Notes under the pieces: generated by a model
Databases searched by the model: none
Seen by the model: only the letters and a program-made list of their open reading frames with translations
What the model was told of the DNA's origin: nothing
Program-made: the position numbers and the translations under genes
IMG/VR virus record: IMGVR_UViG_3300033146_000407
Span: 1-64,000 of that record
From: a virus
Reading direction: 5' to 3' (one strand)
DNA: 64,000 nt
In this document: positions 1 to 29,826 of the stretch, in pieces
How the letters are laid out: each line of letters opens with the position of its first letter
How positions within the stretch are numbered: the first letter of the stretch is position 1

Positions 1-1226
1 GCAGTACCATCACCATCCCATGTTGGGTGGTCTTCAATAACAACAAACCCCCCACAGAGAGTATCCCCTGCTAATACCGCCGCATCATATTGAGCTGTCA
101 TCCAATCACCATTAGTCGTGTGACCTTTAACATTTGTATAATAATGTTTGACTGAATTGATCACATCCCAATCTATTTCAAGATCAGCCGGCTTATCAGG
201 CATATTTAAACTATCTAATAAATCCATTGTATTTTCATGGTAGAACGTTCCTTTATTATAACATATCTCTTCCATCCAGTCAGCAACAACGGTTCCGTTA
301 TCATACACACTACTAACAGAATGCAATTCTTGAAAATTTAAATCCCATCGTTTAGCCCAATCCATTTTCAATGCAGAATTTGTCCAGTCAGTTGTATGTC
401 TACCGTTGTGGTATATAGTTCCACCGAAGTATGGTTTTTTATTATGCCCTTTAATTCCACCCTCAAAGCCAACTTTTTTAGCAAAATATATAGAACTATT
501 CATATCCCAATGCCCACCGAGATATGCTATATCTCTAAAATGAACAGATCCACCATTAATTATAGTCTCACTTGAATTATAATCCTGATAAAATGGACCA
601 TTAAAATAAAAGTCACATGAATTAGTCGTAAGCTTCCCATTTATATAAGTGAACCCATCAATTTGTACATCCACGTTACTTTCGAAATCAGTATTTCCAC
701 CTAACTTAAATGCCGCCATTGGAGTGAATGTAGTATCAGGAACGGTATCATATACAGTATCTATTTTTATTTCAAGACCATCAAGATAATATAAACAAAC
801 ATTAGAGGATCTACCACCACCCTGAGATTCCCCAATAATTTCTATCTTAGCAATCATATATTGAGGATCGAATGCAGTTAATATTGCTTTATATTTATTT
901 TTACTACCACTCATAGACACATAATGAGTAGAATCTCCTAAAATATAATAATCTACAATATCACTATCATGTATAGCATTCATAGTAAGAGATAAGTGGC
1001 TTATGAGAGAATCAAATATATCCGATGTATCTTCAGATTCTATTAATTTAGTTGCATGATAAGCGGCATTAATAGTATTCATTCTCGCCTTTTCAGTAAG
1101 ACCCGAATACACACCAGACATTGCATCTGATCCTGCAAGTTTAATTAAATTCATTCCAATAAATGATACTGCTAGAAGTGCCATTAATACATATAGTAAA
1201 GTAACACCTTTTTTATTTCCCACCAT
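1..1226 (-). CDS. Secreted protein with type IV pilin/PilX-like N-terminus (3' end outside window)
   Basis: The frame is open from an ATG at 1226 to the window edge, so the C-terminus is missing (at least 408 residues are visible). The N-terminus reads MVGNKKG followed by VTLLYVLMALLAVSFIG. This is a short basic leader, a Gly before the predicted prepilin-peptidase cut and a hydrophobic helix, as in PilX-type minor pseudopilins; the usual Glu at mature position 5 is absent. The rest is a long Gly/Asn/Asp-rich extracellular-type region (for example YLGGHWDMNSSIYF) that could be a beta-solenoid. It overlaps the stop of the upstream FlgD-like gene by 14 bp, so translation is probably coupled. 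Processing and export would need host type IV pilus or type II secretion enzymes. The pilin-like call rests on the N-terminus only. Confidence 0.6.
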   Translation of the reverse strand, partial: MVGNKKGVTLLYVLMALLAVSFIGMNLIKLAGSDAMSGVYSGLTEKARMNTINAAYHATKLIESEDTSDIFDSLISHLSLTMNAIHDSDIVDYYILGDSTHYVSMSGSKNKYKAILTAFDPQYMIAKIEIIGESQGGGRSSNVCLYYLDGLEIKIDTVYDTVPDTTFTPMAAFKLGGNTDFESNVDVQIDGFTYINGKLTTNSCDFYFNGPFYQDYNSSETIINGGSVHFRDIAYLGGHWDMNSSIYFAKKVGFEGGIKGHNKKPYFGGTIYHNGRHTTDWTNSALKMDWAKRWDLNFQELHSVSSVYDNGTVVADWMEEICYNKGTFYHENTMDLLDSLNMPDKPADLEIDWDVINSVKHYYTNVKGHTTNGDWMTAQYDAAVLAGDTLCGGFVVIEDHPTWDGDGT

Positions 1227-1881
1227 ACTTAACACCAATCATCATCCGATACGAAACATGTTTAGTCTCTAAGACCGGACCGTTTTCTGTGAATATTTCA
1301 TAACGTAAGGTTGCATTTATAATGACTAGATATGCACCAGAACCAACAACTCTACCATTTAAATTCCTACCATCCCACACACCAACACCGACATTTTTTC
1401 CATCTGATGCGGTAACCCAATCCATATCCATATCAGATACTACACGATTACCAACAGCATCGAATATATTTATTATACCACTACAATCATTTAATGTCAA
1501 TGACAATCTAGTTCTTATTATTATAGCAGACCCATAATTATATTTATATGCGGATATATTAAGATAATCTAACACATCATAATTAATCGGAGCTGGAGTG
1601 TTGTTATGTATAATTAATGGGTTATCTATTATATGATAATCAATAGTTTCTTTAGGTATTACTATTATAGTGTAACGAGCAGTATCCATCATCCCATTAG
1701 CATCTTCTAGCTCAATAAAGAATGAATCGTATACAAAGCTCCCCCTAACTAAATTAGGATGCGTATAACTAACCATACCATCATCTATTGTAGCAACACC
1801 TTCCATAGGGTCAACCACAATAGATAATGTATACGGAAATATTGTAATGAACAGTAATACTATTAGTATTACCGATTTCAT
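1213..1881 (-). CDS. Secreted protein: half cadherin-like domain plus C-terminal FlgD-type Ig domain
   Basis: A clear signal peptide (MKSVILIVLLFITIFPYTLS) is followed at once by VVDPMEGVATIDDG and then DSFFIELEDANG. This is the second half of a tandem-95/cadherin-like beta-sandwich without its first strands. The C-terminal third has the FlgD Ig-like signature: IFDAVGNRV, then VWDGRNLNGRVVGSGAYLV, ending IGVKYGGK. That module is common in surface proteins of Fibrobacterota and related fibre-degrading bacteria. The start codon overlaps the upstream stop (TAATG), which implies coupled translation. A role as a surface or appendage subunit is inferred. Confidence 0.65.
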   Translation of the reverse strand: MKSVILIVLLFITIFPYTLSIVVDPMEGVATIDDGMVSYTHPNLVRGSFVYDSFFIELEDANGMMDTARYTIIVIPKETIDYHIIDNPLIIHNNTPAPINYDVLDYLNISAYKYNYGSAIIIRTRLSLTLNDCSGIINIFDAVGNRVVSDMDMDWVTASDGKNVGVGVWDGRNLNGRVVGSGAYLVIINATLRYEIFTENGPVLETKHVSYRMMIGVKYGGK

Positions 1882-2294
1882 TATGGTGCTACAGTATTAA
1901 CAACAGGTTTAAATGTAACAGTCTCCTGCTCAAATACCTTGACTGTAGTGTCGTTGATATTGAACAATAGATATTTTGGGTATATATTAACATACACAAA
2001 CGCAGAATCAGTAATAACTGAACTCATAGCATGATGCACATATACCGGAATAGTATCTTGGAGAATTCCATCCGACCCATCAGAATAAGCGATAGTGGAA
2101 TCTGAATATCCTACCACCGGACCAGCAACTGTAGTTGGTAGCCATGGGATATCCCCAGCAACAAATGTAATAGTTGAATCTGACACCGTAGCAGTACCAT
2201 TATGGATAGTAGAATTACCCTTTAATGATAGGTAATACTCATCAGCAAATAATGCGGTCACTGCAAATAATAATAATAATGTAAATTTTAACAT
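1881..2294 (-). CDS. Small secreted Ig-like protein
   Basis: 137 residues with a typical signal peptide (MLKFTLLLLFAVTALFA). The mature part begins like the later strands of a cadherin-like domain (STIHNGTATVSDSTITFVAG, later SAFVYVNIYP). It ends with NDTTVKVFEQETVTF and then VVNTVAP, which looks like the opening strands of another such domain. It has its own GGAGG ribosome-binding site (RBS) and is followed by an overlapping TAATG into the next secreted gene. No enzymatic motif is visible. It probably acts as an extracellular structural subunit; the family assignment is from the beta-strand pattern only. Confidence 0.6.
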   Translation of the reverse strand: MLKFTLLLLFAVTALFADEYYLSLKGNSTIHNGTATVSDSTITFVAGDIPWLPTTVAGPVVGYSDSTIAYSDGSDGILQDTIPVYVHHAMSSVITDSAFVYVNIYPKYLLFNINDTTVKVFEQETVTFKPVVNTVAP

Positions 2295-2310
2295 ACCAAA
2301 CCTCCATAGT

Positions 2311-2769
2311 TTATTGTATATCAGTATTTATATAAACTGTATCTAATCTATATACTTTAATTAGAGTATCATTCATATAAAACTTGTCACATTCATCATC
2401 ATCATAAATTGTTATAACAAAAGATTGTATGATATATGTTAAATTAAAATCATAAATATCTATTGTGAATTCTTTATCTATATTACAATCATCATTATCT
2501 ATAATAGTAAACTTTATATCTTTTTTAGGGTATACCTCAAATGCATTATACACCAATCTACCAACAGCCCGTGATGTAAAATCTACACCCCTAATGGCAG
2601 TCCCATCAACTACTTTATATTTATATCTCCTCTTGCTCCACGACCAACTATTAATTTTAACTATAAAATAATCTAATCCATGATCTTCATACACCTCAGT
2701 CGGCGACAAATCAAATGTAACTGAAAATACAGAAACACTCAATAATAATATTAAATATAAATTCTTCAT
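2311..2769 (-). CDS. Small secreted Calx-beta-like protein
   Basis: 152 residues. A signal peptide (MKNLYLILLLSVSVFS) leads into a single Calx-beta-like domain: VTFDLSPTEVYEDHG, GTAIRGVDF and FTIIDNDDCNIDKEFTI match the usual layout, with acidic residues that could bind Ca2+. The last 25 residues (NDTLIKVYRLDTVYI) extend beyond that domain and resemble the first strands of a cadherin-like domain. Its ATG overlaps the stop of the preceding gene (TAATG). It is probably exported together with its neighbours; function unknown. Confidence 0.6.
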   Translation of the reverse strand: MKNLYLILLLSVSVFSVTFDLSPTEVYEDHGLDYFIVKINSWSWSKRRYKYKVVDGTAIRGVDFTSRAVGRLVYNAFEVYPKKDIKFTIIDNDDCNIDKEFTIDIYDFNLTYIIQSFVITIYDDDECDKFYMNDTLIKVYRLDTVYINTDIQ

Positions 2770-4271
2770 TAGTCAGGATCAACTACATTTGGGGTATTAA
2801 TAATACTACCACCCTCTAAACAAGTTATAGTGTCCGATTGAATAACTGGATTGTGTGTGTTTTGATCATTCTCAAGAATTGTTATTGTCACTTGATATGG
2901 ATCTGTAGGTAATGTTATATTAGCGGTAGCATCATACAACTCAAGAATAAATGTTTCATTAGGTTCAGCTATAGCATCATCAACTATCGTTAATGGTATA
3001 AGCATCTCACTAGAACCAACGACGAAATGTAAAGTCCCTTGTAGAGTAGCAGTTATATCAGAATTTATAGACGCACTACCATCAACAAACTTCCAACTTA
3101 GCACCCCAGTACTATCTTCAGCAGGGGAATTTAATTTAACTTTGATATTAACATTACCATCAGTTTCATCGAATATTGTATTTTCAACCGAAACTCCTGT
3201 AGTGTGAAATTCTTTACCTGATGTAAGACCTGCAATCAATTCAAGAATATCATTATTACCTGAGTTATTACTTAATGCGTTATATATATCAGTAAACACA
3301 AACACTCTACCGTTTTGATATGCTGGTAATAAATTATTTTGATTATAAGCAATACCAACATAAGCACCATCTACTCCGGGCTTCACCCAAATATCAACAT
3401 CAACTGGTTCTGTGATCCAATTGGTTGCGGCATCAGCATCAAACACACCATCATCAATCCATAATGAACTAACTCCAGGTTCACTTGAACCATTAACCCA
3501 CTGTTTTGCTGTATATTTATGTCCATTATACGCAACTTCATCACCACCATTATAGGTGATGCTATTGTCCCATAATTCAATAATCCTATGAGTAGAGTCT
3601 ATGGTGATAGTATGCTTAACATATTTATCCCATTTTTCGGTATATGATGTATCAGGGGGTACTGGAGCCTCTGTTTGTAGTGCTGGAATACCAACACCCA
3701 TCAATGATTCTGTTGTATGTCCATAAGCAGAAGCTGTATATGAATTAGACCCTAATTTAGCAGCTAAACTAGGCTCAACATTTAGTCTTGGATCATTGGT
3801 ATATGTAATAGGACTTGTTCTAAAATCACTATAATTTGTAATAGTTATACCTTCACCACTAACCGTCTGTAGAAAGGTACTTATATGAGCATGAGTTTGT
3901 CCAGGACCATTAGTATATGAACCATTCTGGTCATGGTCTGTTAAAAACGCAACATTACCACCATTAGCTAAATAAGACGGTAATATATTAGTAACTGTAT
4001 TTGTTGATGGTTCATCGAAAGTACCATCAGCCATACCACCAGAAGTCCAATTTTTATAATCAGCAAACCATATTTGATCGTATTGAGATATATTAGCTGG
4101 GGTATGTTCTACAATAGTAACTTCAACATCACCTAGAGTCTCTAAATGAGCTTTCCAATCCGTTAATTGAGTTTCCCCTGAACCACCCCACTGTCTACCG
4201 ACTATAAGTATCTTCGTTTGAGAAAACGTAATCACAACAAACACCATAATAATCAAACTTAGTAGTTTCAT
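2769..4271 (-). CDS. Secreted multidomain protein: ThuA/GATase-like, CBM5/12-like and Calx-beta domains
   Basis: The start is taken at the ATG at 4271, with AGGAG 5 nt upstream. A signal peptide (LLSLIIMVFVVITFS) is followed by an alpha/beta region that begins KILIVGRQWGGSGE, with ANGGNVAFLTDHD further on, like the ThuA/GATase-type fold. Around residues 225-275 is a CBM5/12-type chitin/cellulose-binding signature (YNGGDEVAYNGHKYTAKQW). Around residues 365-470 is a Calx-beta domain (FDETDGNVNIKVKL to IDDAIAEPNETF-like strands). The last 30 residues (NPVIQSDTITCLEGG to VVDPD) are only the beginning of a cadherin-like domain. First gene of the exported set; role inferred as a surface or polysaccharide-binding component. 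Confidence 0.6.
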   Translation of the reverse strand: MKLLSLIIMVFVVITFSQTKILIVGRQWGGSGETQLTDWKAHLETLGDVEVTIVEHTPANISQYDQIWFADYKNWTSGGMADGTFDEPSTNTVTNILPSYLANGGNVAFLTDHDQNGSYTNGPGQTHAHISTFLQTVSGEGITITNYSDFRTSPITYTNDPRLNVEPSLAAKLGSNSYTASAYGHTTESLMGVGIPALQTEAPVPPDTSYTEKWDKYVKHTITIDSTHRIIELWDNSITYNGGDEVAYNGHKYTAKQWVNGSSEPGVSSLWIDDGVFDADAATNWITEPVDVDIWVKPGVDGAYVGIAYNQNNLLPAYQNGRVFVFTDIYNALSNNSGNNDILELIAGLTSGKEFHTTGVSVENTIFDETDGNVNIKVKLNSPAEDSTGVLSWKFVDGSASINSDITATLQGTLHFVVGSSEMLIPLTIVDDAIAEPNETFILELYDATANITLPTDPYQVTITILENDQNTHNPVIQSDTITCLEGGSIINTPNVVDPD

Positions 4272-4286
4272 ACCCACTCCTATATA

Positions 4287-5003: not shown

Positions 5004-7130
5004 TTAATGATATACAATACCCTCACCTCTTTCCCATTGGGTCTTAGTAACAACTGTCACATTTGGATGAGTATTCCCCAATTCAGTTCTCCACGCACCT
5101 AAACTATCAGTATCTGGTATTGTTAAATAAACCGGCTGACCGTCAAACCTCAACGCATAATCCCCTATATGTGGTATACCATCAGTACTCTTATAATGAT
5201 CAAAATGTATAACATGTAGATAAGGGAATCCATCATCAAATGCATGATTACCGATATATATAATAGACTTAGGGAATCTTAAATATCTTGATTCTTCTAT
5301 TACAGAGCCAGGTTCACATGATGAACTTCCCTTAGCCAAACTCCAACCATAAAATGCATAATCTCCTATAACTCTAACGCTATCATCATGATAATAATCA
5401 TCTGTTGGCACAGCAAATACAGGAAGTCCACGATATTTACGCCAACCATAAAATGCATAGCTCCCAATATTAACAGCATATTTTAACATTAGAGGTTCAT
5501 ATGAATATGCACCGATTGCATCTGTAAATGTCGTAGGATCAGTGTAACTATAATTACTAGCACGGTCGGGTGGTAAATACCCATCAATAGAATCATTACC
5601 ATATTCATAATACTCAGACGAATCCCAATCCCAAGGCTTTACCCCCTTATTCATATCACCACGATAATCACCGTCTTGCATCCATAGTAGAGATACCCAG
5701 TTATCTTCCTGTAAATGTTCATGAGCTTCCATACCAAATGAAATACCAAATCCACCTTCATACTTAGAATCACTATACCACCAACGTTGGATACGATACC
5801 CTTTATATTTAGCCTCATTATTACGCAGACTGCGATCATCGGTGGTTAATTGATTATAATAATATGCACCAGTCCCCGAATAATCAGTATTCAGAGAATA
5901 TGCTATGTATTTTTCAGGAGTAACCGCTCTACGTAGTTGTTTGATAACCTCCCTTCTAGCATAATAATAATCCCAACCATCAGACACAAACGCCTTAGCT
6001 AACGTATCAATCACTCCTTCCTCAGATATATAACCCATAGCACCCCATACCTTCTCACCTTCAAGACCCTTAAACACAACCCTTAATGGGCTACTACTAG
6101 AATCGAAAAATAAACCAAATATACGACCTTTATACGCAAATCCACCCATAACATATCGACTATTATCAGTCCTCTTAAAATTATTAGTATAAAGACTCCA
6201 ACCACTACTAGACCGAGAATAACTATTGTAATATCTACCATTTTGATCTTTAACGCTATCATCTCGTGTATAATACACGAATTCGGCAGCAGCCCTTGCA
6301 TTCTCCCATCCATAAAACGCATATGCACCAATATCAATCCTGTGTGATGCCCATATATTAATAGTCAACCCATACATAAAATTAGACCAACCAGAAAACG
6401 CAGCAGCCCCAATATCATCTCTAGTAGACACAAACAACCCACCACATCCAGTAACGTCATTAGGTATACATATAACAGAATTCCATCTACTAAAAGCAAA
6501 ATAATCTATTTCACCGTCTATATTAGATGAAAATCCAAATCTAGTACTTTCCCAACCTTCAAACACAGATCTATTATATTTTGACTGAGATGGTAATGTA
6601 ACAACACCGGGTAATAATGCAGATTTCCAATCACGAAAAGCATTACCACCAATAGTTATATTTGAATTTACGATATAACCACTTCTTCTAACGCTAATAC
6701 CAATACCCAATATATCACGGGAATGCCTATAAGAACCAGATGAATGCTCTCCTATAGGCTCGAATGTAACGGATGTAGATGATATCTCAATAACCTCACC
6801 TATAACACACACGCCAGTATTATCATTATCATCCCACTCAGCAATATATAAAATATCACCAACTATAAGTGGTGTATTAAATTTAGTATAATCTATATCG
6901 ATAAGTTTTTGTCCAGTATATTTACCAGTACTCAAACGAACCATACTATCGGGTAATTGATATCTATCATATACTTCCCCAAAAGTCACACCACCAGTAT
7001 AAGATTCCCAACCTCGAAATGATTCAGTACCTATAGTATTCACGCTACGTGGAACTTCTAAAGACTTATCAGAATTAGCATGACCCCAATCCTTAAATGT
7101 AGAATTACCAATATGTTTAATATTACTCAT
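5004..7130 (-). CDS. BspA-type leucine-rich-repeat protein, possible adhesin or tail-fibre component
   Basis: The start is taken at 7130 (MSNIKHIG), which has GGGAGG 4 nt upstream; an upstream in-frame ATG is less likely. The 708-residue protein has many irregular TpLRR/BspA repeats built on a phrase like IGxxAFYGW (FKDWGHA, SFRGWES, AFRDWKS, AFSGWSN, AFYGWEN, AFYGWRK, AFYGWSL). There is no signal peptide. The same AFxGW repeat occurs in the fibre-region genes at 41343 and 43321. This suggests a virion-displayed recognition module or exchange with them. It overlaps the preceding glycosyltransferase by 8 bp. A role in glycan or surface binding is inferred from the repeat class. Confidence 0.65.
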   Translation of the reverse strand: MSNIKHIGNSTFKDWGHANSDKSLEVPRSVNTIGTESFRGWESYTGGVTFGEVYDRYQLPDSMVRLSTGKYTGQKLIDIDYTKFNTPLIVGDILYIAEWDDNDNTGVCVIGEVIEISSTSVTFEPIGEHSSGSYRHSRDILGIGISVRRSGYIVNSNITIGGNAFRDWKSALLPGVVTLPSQSKYNRSVFEGWESTRFGFSSNIDGEIDYFAFSRWNSVICIPNDVTGCGGLFVSTRDDIGAAAFSGWSNFMYGLTINIWASHRIDIGAYAFYGWENARAAAEFVYYTRDDSVKDQNGRYYNSYSRSSSGWSLYTNNFKRTDNSRYVMGGFAYKGRIFGLFFDSSSSPLRVVFKGLEGEKVWGAMGYISEEGVIDTLAKAFVSDGWDYYYARREVIKQLRRAVTPEKYIAYSLNTDYSGTGAYYYNQLTTDDRSLRNNEAKYKGYRIQRWWYSDSKYEGGFGISFGMEAHEHLQEDNWVSLLWMQDGDYRGDMNKGVKPWDWDSSEYYEYGNDSIDGYLPPDRASNYSYTDPTTFTDAIGAYSYEPLMLKYAVNIGSYAFYGWRKYRGLPVFAVPTDDYYHDDSVRVIGDYAFYGWSLAKGSSSCEPGSVIEESRYLRFPKSIIYIGNHAFDDGFPYLHVIHFDHYKSTDGIPHIGDYALRFDGQPVYLTIPDTDSLGAWRTELGNTHPNVTVVTKTQWERGEGIVYH

Positions 7131-7935
7131 ATAACCTCCCACGCAACATAGTATATAGATCAGTATCAGTTAAATTAATAATAGATAATATATAATCTAT
7201 ATGAGTCGTTCCGTGTATAGCAACACTAGCATCAAAATGGTAGTGTAAATTAATAACTTTACTATTATTTATATATATAGTAGAATCATTGATACATAAA
7301 TCATTTATATCGTCTAATTTCCAAAAAGCAACATTCATCCCGTAATCTAACTCAGATATAATATAATCTCCGGACTCTAACACAACGCTAAGAGGCTTCT
7401 GTTCATAAAAATAATATTGGTTAGAGTCAATAACCAATCGCCAATCATTAATCAAATCAATATTAGTAGCACCAACCATACCAGCATTATATTTACCATA
7501 CATAATATCATCTTCTTCAGGTTGATCTTGAATAGATAATGCAATATCAAACTCTTTATGATATAAACTATTTAAAAATGATTGAGGAATCTCATTGACA
7601 AATACCATATCAGCATCTAACAAAAAACAATAACCATATGTAGATATAGATAATAACATTATATCTAATTTAGTTTGAACTAAAGCTCTATAATTATCCT
7701 TAGATGTTCTACGTTCATCAATACTCATCTTAGTACTATTAAATATAAAAGTACCACTATCACCAATAAGTAAATGCAAATCCATATCCAACTCATCTTT
7801 ATATATATCATATACATAAGAATCCACAGATAAAATCCATTTAATATTATGATATCGCTCGATAGAGTACTTTAAATAAGTAAACTCCTTATATATCCGC
7901 TCACTTACAACACAACATACTACCAAATAATCCAT
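7123..7935 (-). CDS. Glycosyltransferase (nucleotide-diphospho-sugar transferase-like, DxD motif)
   Basis: 270 residues. It contains LVQTKLDIM, then GYCFLLDADMVFV with a DAD metal/nucleotide-sugar motif, then YGKYNAGMVG and YFYEQKPLSVVLE. This matches phage and bacterial GT-A fold transferases of the nucleotide-diphospho-sugar transferase type. The C-terminal domain of the glycosyltransferase at 26526-29114 has the same order of blocks (VKTKLDIARM, AFIMDTDMIML, YGKYNVGMIV, FFEQKPFELAV), so the two are clear paralogues within one genome. The RBS (AGGGG) lies just after a GC-rich hairpin. It may glycosylate a structural protein or surface component. Confidence 0.75.
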   Translation of the reverse strand: MDYLVVCCVVSERIYKEFTYLKYSIERYHNIKWILSVDSYVYDIYKDELDMDLHLLIGDSGTFIFNSTKMSIDERRTSKDNYRALVQTKLDIMLLSISTYGYCFLLDADMVFVNEIPQSFLNSLYHKEFDIALSIQDQPEEDDIMYGKYNAGMVGATNIDLINDWRLVIDSNQYYFYEQKPLSVVLESGDYIISELDYGMNVAFWKLDDINDLCINDSTIYINNSKVINLHYHFDASVAIHGTTHIDYILSIINLTDTDLYTMLRGRLYE

Positions 7936-8602: not shown

Positions 8603-10009
8603 ATGGCATATTTAGAATTTCTAGGAGCATGTGAAACAGTAACTGGTAGCAAATTTATAGTATCAAATTCAAAGAAAAAAATATTATTAGATTGTGGGAT
8701 GGTTCAAGGACATAAAGACGATGCTTATTTAGAAAATCTAGAATTCTCAAAAAACACCCCTGACGTTGACTACTGTATATTATCACATTCCCATATAGAC
8801 CACTCTGGTATGCTACCTTCATTAGTTAAGAACGGATACACAGGTCCTATATATTCAACACCAGCAACAAGAGATTTATGTTCTCATATGCTCAGAGATT
8901 CAGTTGCAGTATTCACTAAAGAACTTCCAGTGATAAACAGAATGTTGAAAAAGAAAAAGAAGCATATACAGACCTCTTTATTATATACGACTGATGACGT
9001 GGCTAACTGTATGGAACACTTCAAAACCATCCCATATGATACCCAGGAAGAGCTATCTGAAGGTATTAAAGTATCTTTACATGACTCATGTCATATACTA
9101 GGATCATCATCAATAAGAATGGATATCACTGAAGATAATGTAAACCATCGAGTTTGGTATACTTCTGATATAGGAGATGATGATTCTAAGTTGTCTCATA
9201 AACTAAAAACTCCACAAGATATAGATTATCTCATTATAGAATCAACATACGGAAATAAGAAGAAACGTGAAGATGAAGACATCCAACAATTAATGATGGA
9301 TTATATTATAGACGCATATAAACGAGGTGGTAAATTAATTATACCGGCTTTCTCAGTTGCTAGGATGCAAACTATAATAGTTATAATCCACAAATTACAT
9401 CTAATGGGTCTAATCCCAGATATCCCTGTTTATGTAGATAGTCCATTGGGAGTTAAAGTGACTAAACTATATACTAAATATGAAGACTTATTAAATACAG
9501 ATAATCTACGATACTTTACTGATACAAATATAGACCCATTCAACGGCGAAATGATTGAATATATATCATCTATGGATGAGTCAACCGCTATAGCACAACA
9601 AACAGAACCTTGTATTGTTATATCAGCATCAGGAATGTGTGAAGGTGGTCACATCAGAGAACATTTAAAGTATACAGTGGGTGATAAAAATTCAACTGTA
9701 TTATTTGTTGGGTATAATGCGGAAGGAACTCTCGGACGAAGACTCCAAGAAAGTAACGGACAAGCTACTATAGACGGAAAACAATATAGAGTTAGATGTA
9801 AGATTGAAACTATTAAAGGATTATCGGCTCATGCTGATATAGAATCATTAGTGAATTATGTAAGAGATGTTGTGTCTACTAATGACATAAAAAATATATT
9901 CTTAGTTCATGGAGAAGAAGATTCTATACATAACATGAAACATCGACTAAATAGTTTAGGGATAACCAATGTGATTATCCCTAAAATAAATACTAAATAC
10001 CAATTATAA
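8603..10009 (+). CDS. Metallo-beta-lactamase/beta-CASP RNA-processing nuclease-like protein
   Basis: 468 residues, one of only two plus-strand genes. The metal-binding motif HSHIDH is at residues 62-67, with further ligands at H163 and D189 (SDIG). The beta-CASP region carries ESTYGNK, IIPAFSVAR and SASGMCEGGH. The RMBL C-terminal part has GLSAHAD and FLVHGEE. This is the full CPSF73/RNase J/archaeal aCPSF-type layout, normally an RNA endonuclease or 5' exonuclease. GGAGAG lies 4-5 nt upstream of the ATG. In a phage it could degrade or process host or phage mRNA. The family call is firm; the biological target is unknown. Confidence 0.9.
   Translation: MAYLEFLGACETVTGSKFIVSNSKKKILLDCGMVQGHKDDAYLENLEFSKNTPDVDYCILSHSHIDHSGMLPSLVKNGYTGPIYSTPATRDLCSHMLRDSVAVFTKELPVINRMLKKKKKHIQTSLLYTTDDVANCMEHFKTIPYDTQEELSEGIKVSLHDSCHILGSSSIRMDITEDNVNHRVWYTSDIGDDDSKLSHKLKTPQDIDYLIIESTYGNKKKREDEDIQQLMMDYIIDAYKRGGKLIIPAFSVARMQTIIVIIHKLHLMGLIPDIPVYVDSPLGVKVTKLYTKYEDLLNTDNLRYFTDTNIDPFNGEMIEYISSMDESTAIAQQTEPCIVISASGMCEGGHIREHLKYTVGDKNSTVLFVGYNAEGTLGRRLQESNGQATIDGKQYRVRCKIETIKGLSAHADIESLVNYVRDVVSTNDIKNIFLVHGEEDSIHNMKHRLNSLGITNVIIPKINTKYQL
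9955..9985 (+). other. Perfect 11-bp inverted repeat at the 3' end of the beta-CASP gene
   Basis: TTTAGGGATAA and TTATCCCTAAA flank a 9-nt loop within the last codons of the gene, 24 bp before its stop. The convergent minus-strand gene ends at 10010, so there is no room for a separate terminator. This hairpin may serve as the 3' end or processing signal for one or both transcripts. No run of T follows. Confidence 0.45.
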
Positions 10010-11633: not shown

Positions 11634-12626
11634 ATGGTGATTAACCATAGAATCAACTCAGACGACAGCGATAAGCTACAGCAACAGATTCAGCAACAAC
11701 TCGAAGAACAGCAATCTGATGGTAAAATTATGATATCTGGTGAGTATCATACACTATTCATTGAAGAAGAAGCTCCTACATACGAAAACATTACTGTTGA
11801 AATTGATGGGAAACCGTTCCTTCTTGAGGATAACCCTCTAGTATTAAACAAAGAAGCTATCCCTAAACATAAAAAGTTCACTCTCTTTGTTGAAATGTTC
11901 GGTCATGAAAAAACACAACTACACCATGTACTCTACGCATTACGTAAAGGTGAAGAAAACGATACATTTGAAATTCGCATCGATTCTCCTGGTGGGTATA
12001 TGAAAGAAGGACTCACTCTGTATAATATCATGAGAGAAAAATTCACAAACCGAACAGTTACCTATTTAGATTCTAGTGCCTATAGTATGGGAGCTCTTCT
12101 ATTTAGTATGGGTGACCAGCGTATTGTATATGAGCATAGTTCTCTTATGTATCATAACTATTCATCTGGTGCGTTTGGTAAAGGTGATAACCTAAAAACA
12201 TACATTGAACATGAAGAAAAAAATACCCATAACTTCTTTAAGAATGTTATTGTTGATAAGGGATTCCTTACAATGGCAGAATTTGATGAGATGCTTATCG
12301 GTCGTGACTTCTGGTTTGATTGTACTGAATTAGCCCAACGAGGTATTGCTACTCATGTTATGGTTGATGGATTTCTTCTTGAGGGTGCTGATTATCTAGA
12401 ATATAAAGATTCTGAACTAGATATTGAAACATACATCACTATCAAGATTAATGAAATTATGAATGAAGAGGACTTAGAGGTTATCGAAGAACCTAAACCT
12501 AAAAAGAAAAAGAAGAAGACTGAAAAGAAAAAGTCTGCTCCTAAAAAGAAGAAGACTGAAAAGAAAACAGAAAAGAAGTCTACTAAAAAGACTACTAAGA
12601 AAAAGAAATCTACTACTAAGAAATGA
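11634..12626 (+). CDS. ClpP/S14-like serine protease with lysine-rich tail
   Basis: 330 residues. The ClpP core is present: IRIDSPGGYM, then a catalytic Ser151 in SSAYSMGALL, His174 in SLMYHNYS and Asp225 in IGRDFWFD. The Ser-His and His-Asp spacing is close to E. coli ClpP. The first 80 residues are unlike ClpP. The last 50 are low-complexity Lys/Thr/Ser (KKKKKKTEKKK pattern), which could bind nucleic acid or act as a localisation tail. Phage ClpP-fold proteins often serve as prohead proteases. Here the gene is far from recognisable head genes and has an early-type promoter, so proteolysis of host or regulatory proteins is also possible. Confidence 0.85.
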   Translation: MVINHRINSDDSDKLQQQIQQQLEEQQSDGKIMISGEYHTLFIEEEAPTYENITVEIDGKPFLLEDNPLVLNKEAIPKHKKFTLFVEMFGHEKTQLHHVLYALRKGEENDTFEIRIDSPGGYMKEGLTLYNIMREKFTNRTVTYLDSSAYSMGALLFSMGDQRIVYEHSSLMYHNYSSGAFGKGDNLKTYIEHEEKNTHNFFKNVIVDKGFLTMAEFDEMLIGRDFWFDCTELAQRGIATHVMVDGFLLEGADYLEYKDSELDIETYITIKINEIMNEEDLEVIEEPKPKKKKKKTEKKKSAPKKKKTEKKTEKKSTKKTTKKKKSTTKK

Positions 12627-25674: not shown

Positions 25675-26539
25675 AACAAAACTCCTTTAAATACAAATAC
25701 ACACATTTATACATATTATCTGAATTAAAATATGTATAAAACACTTCCTTAGCCCTCTCAGACATCTTCAACACATCTTCATCGCTAAATGAATTTAATA
25801 TTTCTGGTATCTTATCAACATCAGCCTCATTTATTGTAACCGAAAACTCATTCCAATCAAGCATAAAACTTAATGGTGGTTGCCAATCATCCGATATAAT
25901 AACTGGAATAGTACCAACCATCATACTTTCATATAATCTATAGGACGTTCTACCATAACCTCTAGGACATAAACTAAACTTAGAACGTTTTATAGTTTTA
26001 ATATAATTAGACCTAAACTCAATATCATTATTATCAACACCCCAACCGGAATACCCCTCACATTCATTAGGATACAAATCTATTATTGTTTTCCGTATAG
26101 AATGAGTCCAATTAGCACCTTTAAATGAAAATAATAAATCCTTAACAACATCACCATCAATATCAGAAGCGACCGTAGTTCTAGGTATACCAATAAAATT
26201 TTTTAATGTATATGATGATTCAGGAGAAAATACTAAACTATCATCACCAAAATCATAAAAACAATCTAAATTATCAAAATTAACTATGTATACAGGATTA
26301 GATATTCCCACTCTAGCCTCATCGATAGTATCTTGAACTTCCTGTGAATAATTAACTCCACCAGCATACTTCTGCATATTATCAAAAATAGTAAAATCAA
26401 GAATATTCACATCAAAATCTTTATACATATCAATATTATCATATATATGATTTATGATTGTAGTTGTTATCGCATCACCAGTCCATAAACTATCAGTTAT
26501 ATCTTTGTTTATTGGATACTTCGTTTTAATTATTTCCAT
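25670..26539 (-). CDS. Exostosin-like (GT47-type) glycosyltransferase
   Basis: 289 residues. The exostosin-family core is visible: IKRSKFSLCPRGYGRTSYRL, then YESMMVGTIPVIISDDWQPP and FSVTINEADVDKIPEIL. These match the GT-B C-terminal donor-binding half of GT47 enzymes. There is no membrane anchor. AAGG RBS upstream; the start lies inside the end of the three-domain glycosyltransferase, so translation is coupled. Sugar specificity is unknown. Confidence 0.85.
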   Translation of the reverse strand: MEIIKTKYPINKDITDSLWTGDAITTTIINHIYDNIDMYKDFDVNILDFTIFDNMQKYAGGVNYSQEVQDTIDEARVGISNPVYIVNFDNLDCFYDFGDDSLVFSPESSYTLKNFIGIPRTTVASDIDGDVVKDLLFSFKGANWTHSIRKTIIDLYPNECEGYSGWGVDNNDIEFRSNYIKTIKRSKFSLCPRGYGRTSYRLYESMMVGTIPVIISDDWQPPLSFMLDWNEFSVTINEADVDKIPEILNSFSDEDVLKMSERAKEVFYTYFNSDNMYKCVYLYLKEFCY

Positions 26540-29114
26540 TATTCAACCTTTTTATTATCCGATATAAAGATTTATGATTATTGTTTGTGGATTCCTCTAA
26601 AAACTTCATTATAACATCTCTATGTCTATTATTATCTACATCTCTCACCGTACTAGCATCGTTAATGAGATGTACGTGAGCATTCACAATCTCTTTTCCA
26701 CTAATACATATCATATCATCACTACCAAAATGAATAGATAAATTAGGATTATTATTCATCTTCCAGTAAGCAACATTAAACACATCCTCAAGTTCACCAA
26801 AAGTATAGTTACAAGTATCAACAGCTAACTCAAATGGTTTCTGTTCGAAGAATAAATCATCACTCATATAAGACTCCCACTCATCAATAAACTCATCAGA
26901 TCGAATTACTATCATACCAACATTATATTTGCCATACTTCTCTTCAGCAACCTTATCTATAAGATTATGACTAGTAGCCATAACATCAATAGAGCTATTT
27001 GTAATATAGTCTAAAAACGTTTTACCAAAAGGAGACAACATTATCATGTCAGTATCCATAATAAAAGCATACCCATGTCTATCCATAGACATTCGAGCGA
27101 TATCCAATTTAGTCTTAACTAAATTATAAAATTTACGGTCTTCATTGGCATCAGCAAATCTATGAGATCCTTGTTCTTCAACTAATACATTACATTCAAC
27201 ATCACTGAATATAGGATCAGATAAAACTTCAGCGGTTTTAGCATCAGTAGATAATATCCATTTACAATTTTGATGATACTGTAACATTGATAATCTAAAT
27301 AATAAAAATTCATTTATCACATTCTCAGTAACAACAGAACACACGTAAATATCATCATCCTTATAATCAACATTAATATATGGGTTATAAGCGTAAGCAT
27401 TATGAACGATGATGTTATCCTCCACTTTGTGATAAGAATAACACGAATTAACTAATAAATAAGGAGAAGGCAATTTAGTACTTTCATCATAATTCCTAAT
27501 AGCCGACTTATGATTGTGATATAATATAACATCATTAACAGGATTTAATACCGTATATCCAGCCTCTTTTATCAATAAAGCAATCTTATTGTCACAGCCA
27601 AGAATACCCATAGTAAAATCTCCCGATATATCCTTAATTTTACCTTTAAATAACCAAGCATCTTGAGACCCGGCAGGATTTATATCCTGAACCCATGTTA
27701 AATTATCAGTAGATATAAGTTCTTTTCTACTAAGAACCCAAGACTCACCATAATCAATATAAGTTTTAATACGTTTCACGCTATCTTCTAATAAAAAACA
27801 ATCAGAATTGATAATCATATTAATATCATCTTCATATGTCCTATCATTAATCATATCAAACATATGCGAATATGTAGGTCTATCATCAACAGAAATTAAT
27901 TTAACTTTTTTAATATTTAATATGGGATCATTTACTAATTTTTTATCATCTATAACTAAATATATATTATCAATCTCTTTATTTTCTATCAATTTATTCA
28001 ATGAAAATTTTAACTCTTCATTACGATTATCATCAGAATCAATATAATAATTATAATAAACATTAAATTTACCATTAAAATCAACCCCCTCAGATATAAT
28101 ATGTCTGATATGATGTTCTTGCCAATCAGCATCAGTCCGCAATTCAATTATTTCATAATTAGATAAATTTCTATTAATATTAAATCTAGGTATGGCTCCA
28201 TCTAATAGATGCTTATTACGAACACCTTCAGGATCACTAATAATAAACTTATCAGGATCTATTATATCATAAACACTTTCTCTATTAGACCGACAACCAA
28301 CCATTACTTTATCAAATAAATGATCTTTTAAATAATCAGCAACATAATTAGCCCACATACGTTCATATTTAAGTTCACCTAACCAAGGACCAACCATAAG
28401 AACTTTCTCTATATGGTTTGGTTTGTTTGGATGATCGTTAAACATAACAACACTACACTTCTCTGAATATGTAAATAAAAGAATATTATCTTTAAAATCA
28501 TTCTTCCACATACAATAATCAAATACTAATTGATCCCGCTTGGTATTATTCTTCGGTGAGATTTCTCCCCATACAGAATCACTAAACTTAATTAAATTTT
28601 CATCCTTAAATTTACGAACAGACAATCCAGTTTCAACCATAATAGTATATTCATCAGGATATCCAGAATTAAAATACCCCTCAACCTGATTAATCATATC
28701 AGATTTAATATCTTTATTCAATGCTATATTAGCACCTAATTCTTCTTTAAGAGTTGATCTACTAGGATGTTTTTCAATATATAACGATTTATCGGATTTA
28801 GATAAAGTATCAATAAACTTAACCAAATTTTTAGTATTAAATTTAGTAAAACTACAATCAACCCAAACCATAATATCATATTTATCATGATCTAAATAAA
28901 CATGAGGTTGCCATTTATAATAATATGAAGATCTAGCATTATCACCAGGAACTTCCATATCTTCAACATATCGAATATCCCACACACTAGACTCTAAACG
29001 CTTCATATTAGTATAGCATATCACATCAAACTTATCAATATCATAATCAAATGATGGTAGTATTGAATCGTAAGCCCCCATAATAGACGTTACAATAGCA
29101 ATCTTCTTATCCAT
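26526..29114 (-). CDS. Three-domain glycosyltransferase
   Basis: Start set to the ATG at 29114 (GGAG 7 nt upstream), giving 862 residues. Domain 1 (about 1-230) has IAIVTSIMGAYDSILP, DVICYTN and MVWVDCSFTKF, as in DUF616/TOD1-like transferases. Domain 2 (about 285-560) has INSDCFLLEDS and AGSQDAWLFKG, a GT2-like core. Domain 3 (about 600-850) has VKTKLDIARM, AFIMDTDMIML with a DTD motif, and FFEQKPFELAV, and is paralogous to the separate enzyme at 7123. Such a fusion would add several sugars in sequence. It overlaps the GT2 gene upstream by 8 bp. Confidence 0.8.
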   Translation of the reverse strand: MDKKIAIVTSIMGAYDSILPSFDYDIDKFDVICYTNMKRLESSVWDIRYVEDMEVPGDNARSSYYYKWQPHVYLDHDKYDIMVWVDCSFTKFNTKNLVKFIDTLSKSDKSLYIEKHPSRSTLKEELGANIALNKDIKSDMINQVEGYFNSGYPDEYTIMVETGLSVRKFKDENLIKFSDSVWGEISPKNNTKRDQLVFDYCMWKNDFKDNILLFTYSEKCSVVMFNDHPNKPNHIEKVLMVGPWLGELKYERMWANYVADYLKDHLFDKVMVGCRSNRESVYDIIDPDKFIISDPEGVRNKHLLDGAIPRFNINRNLSNYEIIELRTDADWQEHHIRHIISEGVDFNGKFNVYYNYYIDSDDNRNEELKFSLNKLIENKEIDNIYLVIDDKKLVNDPILNIKKVKLISVDDRPTYSHMFDMINDRTYEDDINMIINSDCFLLEDSVKRIKTYIDYGESWVLSRKELISTDNLTWVQDINPAGSQDAWLFKGKIKDISGDFTMGILGCDNKIALLIKEAGYTVLNPVNDVILYHNHKSAIRNYDESTKLPSPYLLVNSCYSYHKVEDNIIVHNAYAYNPYINVDYKDDDIYVCSVVTENVINEFLLFRLSMLQYHQNCKWILSTDAKTAEVLSDPIFSDVECNVLVEEQGSHRFADANEDRKFYNLVKTKLDIARMSMDRHGYAFIMDTDMIMLSPFGKTFLDYITNSSIDVMATSHNLIDKVAEEKYGKYNVGMIVIRSDEFIDEWESYMSDDLFFEQKPFELAVDTCNYTFGELEDVFNVAYWKMNNNPNLSIHFGSDDMICISGKEIVNAHVHLINDASTVRDVDNNRHRDVIMKFLEESTNNNHKSLYRIIKRLNNGNN

Positions 29115-29826
29115 AAACCCGCTCCAAATCAATTTTGTATTCATATAATGGTATGTCAATTAACATAGATTTATTGTATTTATATAACGTTTCTAAACAA
29201 AAATCATAGTCCTCCCCAGTACCATCACCTTTTCTACATAAAGAGACATTATAGGGCTCTTTCCATTCAATATCATCTAATACCTCCCTACGAATACAAA
29301 CAACCCCTGTACCTATCCTAAAACCAAATTCAGCACCATAATACCGAGTATAATTCCACACACTAGCTAAATCTCCGAAAGGTAAATATCGTTTTGTTAA
29401 TTCATCGGATGTAACTACTCTAATCTTTGAGTAATCTATATCCAACATAGGGACGGGTCTATTAAAATTTATAGTATGATTCAATGCAACAATATCATAT
29501 TCTTCAAAATAATGCTTAACAACTTCCACTCGTTGAGGTGAGGGTATATCGTCATCATCTTGATATATAATTAAATCACCAGAAGTTAACTCTTTTGTAT
29601 GTGATCTATTATTTCCGGCACTAACCATTAATTTCTGAACATACAGCTTAACATTATCCATCTTCTGTATATCTATAAGTTTATCTATAGATTCTTGAGT
29701 ATCTACACCAGAAGCATTAATAACTATCTCATCAGGAACAACAGTGCCGGAATTATAAATATTAACGATATTTTTTAAATTATCAAAACTTCTTGGTATA
29801 GAAGGTATATAAACACTAATTTTCAT
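29107..29826 (-). CDS. GT2-family glycosyltransferase
   Basis: Start at the ATG at 29826 with AAGG 8 nt upstream; a longer in-frame TTG start would fall within the promoter. 239 residues. The N-terminal KISVYIPSIPRSFDNL and the metal-binding IIYQDDDDIPSPQRV are typical GT-A/GT2 motifs. DYDFCLETLYKYNKS near the C-terminus fits the acceptor-side ED-like motif. First gene of the seven-gene cassette and directly behind the sigma70-type promoter. Confidence 0.88.
   Translation of the reverse strand: MKISVYIPSIPRSFDNLKNIVNIYNSGTVVPDEIVINASGVDTQESIDKLIDIQKMDNVKLYVQKLMVSAGNNRSHTKELTSGDLIIYQDDDDIPSPQRVEVVKHYFEEYDIVALNHTINFNRPVPMLDIDYSKIRVVTSDELTKRYLPFGDLASVWNYTRYYGAEFGFRIGTGVVCIRREVLDDIEWKEPYNVSLCRKGDGTGEDYDFCLETLYKYNKSMLIDIPLYEYKIDLERVYG

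Follow-up and report, generated by a model that had tools for sequence, protein, structure and literature searches.

Five ORFs with export signals at the end of a phage contig

The window examined here comprises bases 1-64,000 of a viral record of 69,188 bases, a fragment of about 69 kb that carries T4-like phage genes, including a tail sheath, a ClpP-type head-maturation protease and what we take, from its similarity to sister phages and from general knowledge, to be the large terminase. The very end of the contig is occupied by a cassette of five open reading frames, ORFs A-E, all on the minus strand. ORF A (2769-4277) encodes 502 residues from a GTG at 4277, an ATG at 4271 being an equally possible start, and is made up of a signal peptide, an N-terminal domain without a known family, a CBM_5_12 module, a Calx-beta domain and a 33-residue tail. 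ORF B (2311-2769; 152 residues) has a signal peptide, a complete Calx-beta domain and a 29-residue tail, ORF C (1881-2294; 137 residues) a signal peptide, what may be the later half of a cadherin-like domain and a tail, and ORF D (1213-1881; 222 residues) a signal peptide, the second part of a tandem-95/Big_9 domain and a FlgD-Ig-like C-terminal domain. ORF E (3-1226) begins at an ATG at 1226 and is cut by the contig end. The start of B overlaps the stop of A, and that of D the stop of C, in each case through the sequence TAATG; B and C are separated by 16 bases, with a GGAGG ribosome-binding site preceding C, and the first 14 nt of E coincide with the end of D. TAATG overlaps are found at six junctions of the contig, two in the cassette and four elsewhere, and are thus ordinary on this DNA, which rules out a special translational coupling of the cassette genes.

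The initial annotation had described A to D, at about these coordinates, as four consecutive proteins each with a signal peptide of its own rather than as fragments of one broken gene. The signal peptides are real: each of the four minus-strand ORFs has a hydrophobic, signal-peptide-like N-terminus, and a frameshift or stop-codon error is ruled out because every ORF has its own. When 65 non-overlapping ORFs of the contig were screened for hydrophobicity and charge, convincing export signals were confined to the contiguous ORFs A-E, with two further ORFs scoring weakly from internal methionines. The codon-position composition of A-E is like that of the other genes of the phage, so that these ORFs look like maintained coding sequence.

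The cassette is adjoined by a gene for a 712-residue protein with BspA-type leucine-rich repeats (LRR_5; 5004-7142, minus strand) that is without a signal peptide. Two further minus-strand genes (7123-7935 and 26526-29159) encode proteins that are related to each other at 30% identity and that have, by eye only, the look of glycosyltransferases; the second of these also matches a gene of the sister phage G003. On the strand opposite to most genes lies a gene for a protein of the metallo-beta-lactamase fold (8603-10009, plus strand; PHROG 36352, E 1.3e-95), which gave no match when used as a pointer to the host.

Complete and incomplete domains in A, B, D and E

The best-defined parts of the cassette are in ORF A. 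The CBM_5_12 chitin/cellulose-binding module (3459-3572, minus strand; residues 236-273) matches Pfam PF02839 at E 2e-8 and, in the PDB, the module of chitinase C at E 1.5e-6. It is followed by the Calx-beta domain (2865-3194, minus strand; residues 362-471), which covers positions 8-119 of the 119 of Pfam PF03160 (E 3.7e-12; 46.7 bits against a cut-off of 27) and has PDB matches to Na/Ca exchangers. The N-terminal domain of A has no Pfam match. In ORF B the Calx-beta domain scores 22 bits on PF03160 (E 1.8e-4), below the same cut-off of 27, and is supported by a match of residues 18-120 to NCX1 (E 4.7e-4); the Calx-beta domains of A and B are clearly related to each other (score 64, reached by 0 of 2000 shuffles). 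With the Calx-beta domain complete at the beginning of B, no domain is divided across the A/B junction, contrary to what had been proposed. The N-terminus of ORF E, KKG-VTLLYVLMALLAVSF, is like that of a type IV (pseudo)pilin by eye only, with the usual glutamate 5 missing, and this ORF has no match in Pfam, NCBIfam or the PDB.

ORF D is of a different kind. A tandem-95 HMM of 83 positions was built from ten plasmid proteins, without any sequence from the window; the plasmid search that collected these proteins used a joined A and D sequence with an inserted consensus bridge, and served for that purpose only, not as evidence. On this model the head of D (1654-1833, minus strand), taken alone, scores 25.7 bits over positions 27-83, matched by none of 1000 shuffles, the best of which reached 8.2. 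For the whole ORF the match begins at residue 17, inside the signal peptide, and aligns residues 17-76 of D with positions 26-83 of 83, the last five strands of the domain. Pfam Big_9 likewise covers the head of D with profile positions 36-88 of 89 only, at 17.2 bits against a curated cut-off of 23.6, as a partial domain would. Among 16 comparison ORFs with tandem-95 domains, none has a domain running out of the signal peptide in this manner. An AlphaFold model of D, from nine aligned sequences, builds five strands over residues 18-75, mostly at pLDDT 75-88, while residues 1-13 stay below 50, with no confident strand contributed by the signal peptide, even though the alignment placed complete domains against these residues; the remainder of the model is poor. 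Taken together, the HMM match, the comparison ORFs and the AlphaFold model indicate that D really does begin mid-domain, inside or directly after its signal peptide, and the proposal that it starts with the later strands only is confirmed. The FlgD-Ig-like region at its other end (1309-1473, minus strand; residues 137-191) is weakly defined, by Pfam FlgD_ig at E 0.043 and 0.025 and by NCBIfam FlgD-type and PorZ models that match the same stretch at E 0.03-0.11. A fold search with the D model gave nothing below E 0.001, with cadherin and Rib domains among the weak matches.

Tails and heads, singly and joined

If D lacks the first strands of its domain, these must come from somewhere, and it had been suggested that the tails of A, B and C are such first strands and that C, like D, begins with later ones. 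Taken singly, these segments give a mixed picture. The 33-residue tail of A (2772-2870, minus strand), which ends in VVDPD and is the candidate for the first strands of a tandem-95/Big_9 domain, aligns with HMM positions 2-22 at 3.4 bits, a marginal score that 54 of 1000 shuffles equal or better. The tails of B (2314-2400, minus strand) and C (1884-1988, minus strand) are homologues (Smith-Waterman score 45, reached by none of 2000 shuffles), and neither aligns significantly with the tail of A. The B tail does not match the tandem-95 HMM when set against shuffles, and that of C, covering positions 3-16 at 1.0 bit, is equalled or bettered by 227 of 1000. The head of C alone does no better on this HMM than shuffles do; it resembles the head of D by eye, although in direct alignment 371 of 2000 shuffles are as good. 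ORF C has no Pfam match, and its AlphaFold model, made without an alignment, is uninformative (pLDDT 46). The suggestion thus holds marginally for the A tail and, through a joined match described below, for the C head, and is not confirmed for the tails of B and C; the half-domain character of the ends of A, B and C is weak or unsupported.

Joining tails to heads bears directly on whether separately exported chains complete one another, the tails of A, B and C supplying first strands and the heads of C and D the remaining strands of a cadherin-like domain; C, which has both segments, could then polymerise, with A or B as the tip and D as the base. The tail of A joined to the head of D exceeds the Pfam Big_9 cut-off of 23.6 with 27.8 bits, whereas seven controls with shuffled tails gave 18.4-25.1; the same head joined to the tails of C (22.0) and B (19.7) stays inside this control range. 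With the local tandem-95 HMM and 500 shuffled tails per pair, the most favourable join is that of the A tail to the C head, which only 2-3 of 500 shuffles (p about 0.005) and none of 461 natural phage tails equal, and which, at only 8.4 bits and as one of several comparisons on short segments, is suggestive only. The tail and head of C itself are matched by 10-14 of 500 shuffles, and the A tail with the D head by 38-47 (p about 0.03-0.09). The neighbours fare worse: C with D lies within the shuffle range (70-72 of 500, p about 0.15), B with C gives no signal (about half of the shuffles as good) and B with D is equalled by about half or more.

The best-scoring pairs are therefore non-neighbours, and B, the gene flanked by A and C, offers no head that could complement a tail. 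This runs against the expectation of the initial annotation that the joined halves of neighbours would match a single Ig-family profile, since neither C with D nor B with C does better than shuffled tails. Of the broader proposal that the subunits complete each other's domains, the truncated start of D and the Pfam Big_9 score of A with D speak in favour, and what does not stand is a pairing that follows gene order. Completion between chains is possible, as D needs first strands and subunits that donate a strand to one another after separate secretion, with no usher, are known in TasA (PMC9674648). With neighbours not favoured, no half-domain head on B, no profile match of the B and C tails alone and C modelled at so low a confidence, completion in trans is nevertheless a somewhat unlikely account of the cassette as a whole. 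That neighbouring proteins do so to build a filament is at best weakly indicated; a filament is speculation that no test here supports. It is highly doubtful that the proteins assemble on the infected cell through mutual cadherin-like completion, with A as a carbohydrate-binding tip, C as a self-polymerising middle and D as the base.

The same segments may have no need of a partner, the tails of B and C being short C-terminal tags for anchoring or sorting and the heads of C and D small beta domains that close on themselves. The B and C tails are indeed alike without matching the start of a domain, both kinds of segment occur together in the chain of C, and the strand-exchange monomer of TasA can complete itself with a strand of its own (PMC9674648). 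Such an explanation is unlikely, however, in view of the head of D, which matches tandem-95 strongly from position 26 with only the signal peptide before it to supply the missing strands; from that peptide AlphaFold builds no confident strand.

Origin of the cassette and likeness to known systems

Sister phages, retrieved with the sheath and terminase, have many genes in common with this phage from 13.4 kb to the end of the contig, structural genes included, and match no gene between 1 and 13.3 kb. As the structural genes are common to them and the cassette is absent, the block looks gained. Small proteins with signal peptides are also encoded by the sister phage G002 (L025:4253-4513 and L025:16724-17476, minus strand), and no relation between these and the cassette was detected.

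The domain content of the cassette is of the adhesin type, and our tentatively preferred explanation, likelier in our judgement than the others though by no means assured, is that of an accessory cassette whose parts come from bacterial surface adhesins that were broken up and rearranged. The five exported proteins comprise Calx-beta, CBM5/12, cadherin-like tandem-95 and FlgD-Ig-like parts and a pilin-like protein, and would most likely stem from one or two long surface proteins with tandem domains, each piece having kept or gained a signal peptide. Such cuts would account for the half domain with which D opens and, probably, for shorter scars where A, B and C end. Breakage and rearrangement are favoured by the kinship among the pieces and by the failure of the cut ends to pair in the order of the genes; if one repeat protein had been cut up or duplicated, related Calx-beta domains in A and B and homologous tails on B and C would be expected. 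Against this, four separate signal peptides are hard to obtain by simple breakage. Each piece would undergo export on its own in the infected cell and act at the cell surface, a putative role taken from the domain names only, perhaps with polysaccharide binding by the CBM of A, and the missing first strands of D may be supplied by the tail of a partner, that of A fitting best.

The presumed unbroken ancestor was not seen in viral contigs, in annotated phages or, for A, in species genomes. No relatives were found for A, C, D and E in viral contigs, for A, B, D and E in annotated phages, for D and E in plasmids or for A in species genomes, the one exception being the CBM of A, which recurs in records of Listeria phages. 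The viral and genome scans require exact short peptide matches and so reach close relatives only, and distant ones may exist; within this reach, no locus with the same split arrangement was found. A chimeric contig end, or a cassette of host DNA unconnected with the phage, is very unlikely: A-E do lie at the very end, inside the stretch that sister phages lack, the nearest clear phage gene being the head-maturation protease at 11634-12626, but the cassette continues the phage in base composition, strand and gene packing, and TAATG overlaps recur at the four junctions outside the cassette.

Several known systems offer points of comparison. The CBM, FlgD-like and pilin-like parts recall polymer degraders of the Fibrobacterota type, whose reported attachment genes include CBMs, type IV pili and a fibro-slime protein with a FlgD domain (PMC4704652). 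This is a resemblance only, and no homologue was found in Fibrobacterota. The closest likeness of the D head, at 25.7 bits, is to the second part of the domains of tandem-95/Big_9/cadherin-like bacterial surface adhesins, which differ in that they carry complete domains in tandem on one long chain, whereas in D, a protein of 222 residues, the domain starts inside the signal peptide. Should mutual completion of the pieces prove real, the cassette would represent a novel mode of extracellular assembly and a structure made by a phage on the surface of the cells it infects. Otherwise it is still an unusual phage case of an adhesin broken up into several exported proteins, one that illustrates how the dismantling of multidomain surface proteins may proceed in viral genomes. 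With the fibres formed by donor-strand exchange, namely chaperone-usher pili, TasA and archaeal threads, the cassette would share the idea of an exported subunit that is completed by another. In chaperone-usher pili a single strand is exchanged, and it comes from an N-terminal extension. The same holds for TasA (PMC9674648). The present arrangement would differ from these fibres in that the first two strands of the domain would have to come from a C-terminal tail.
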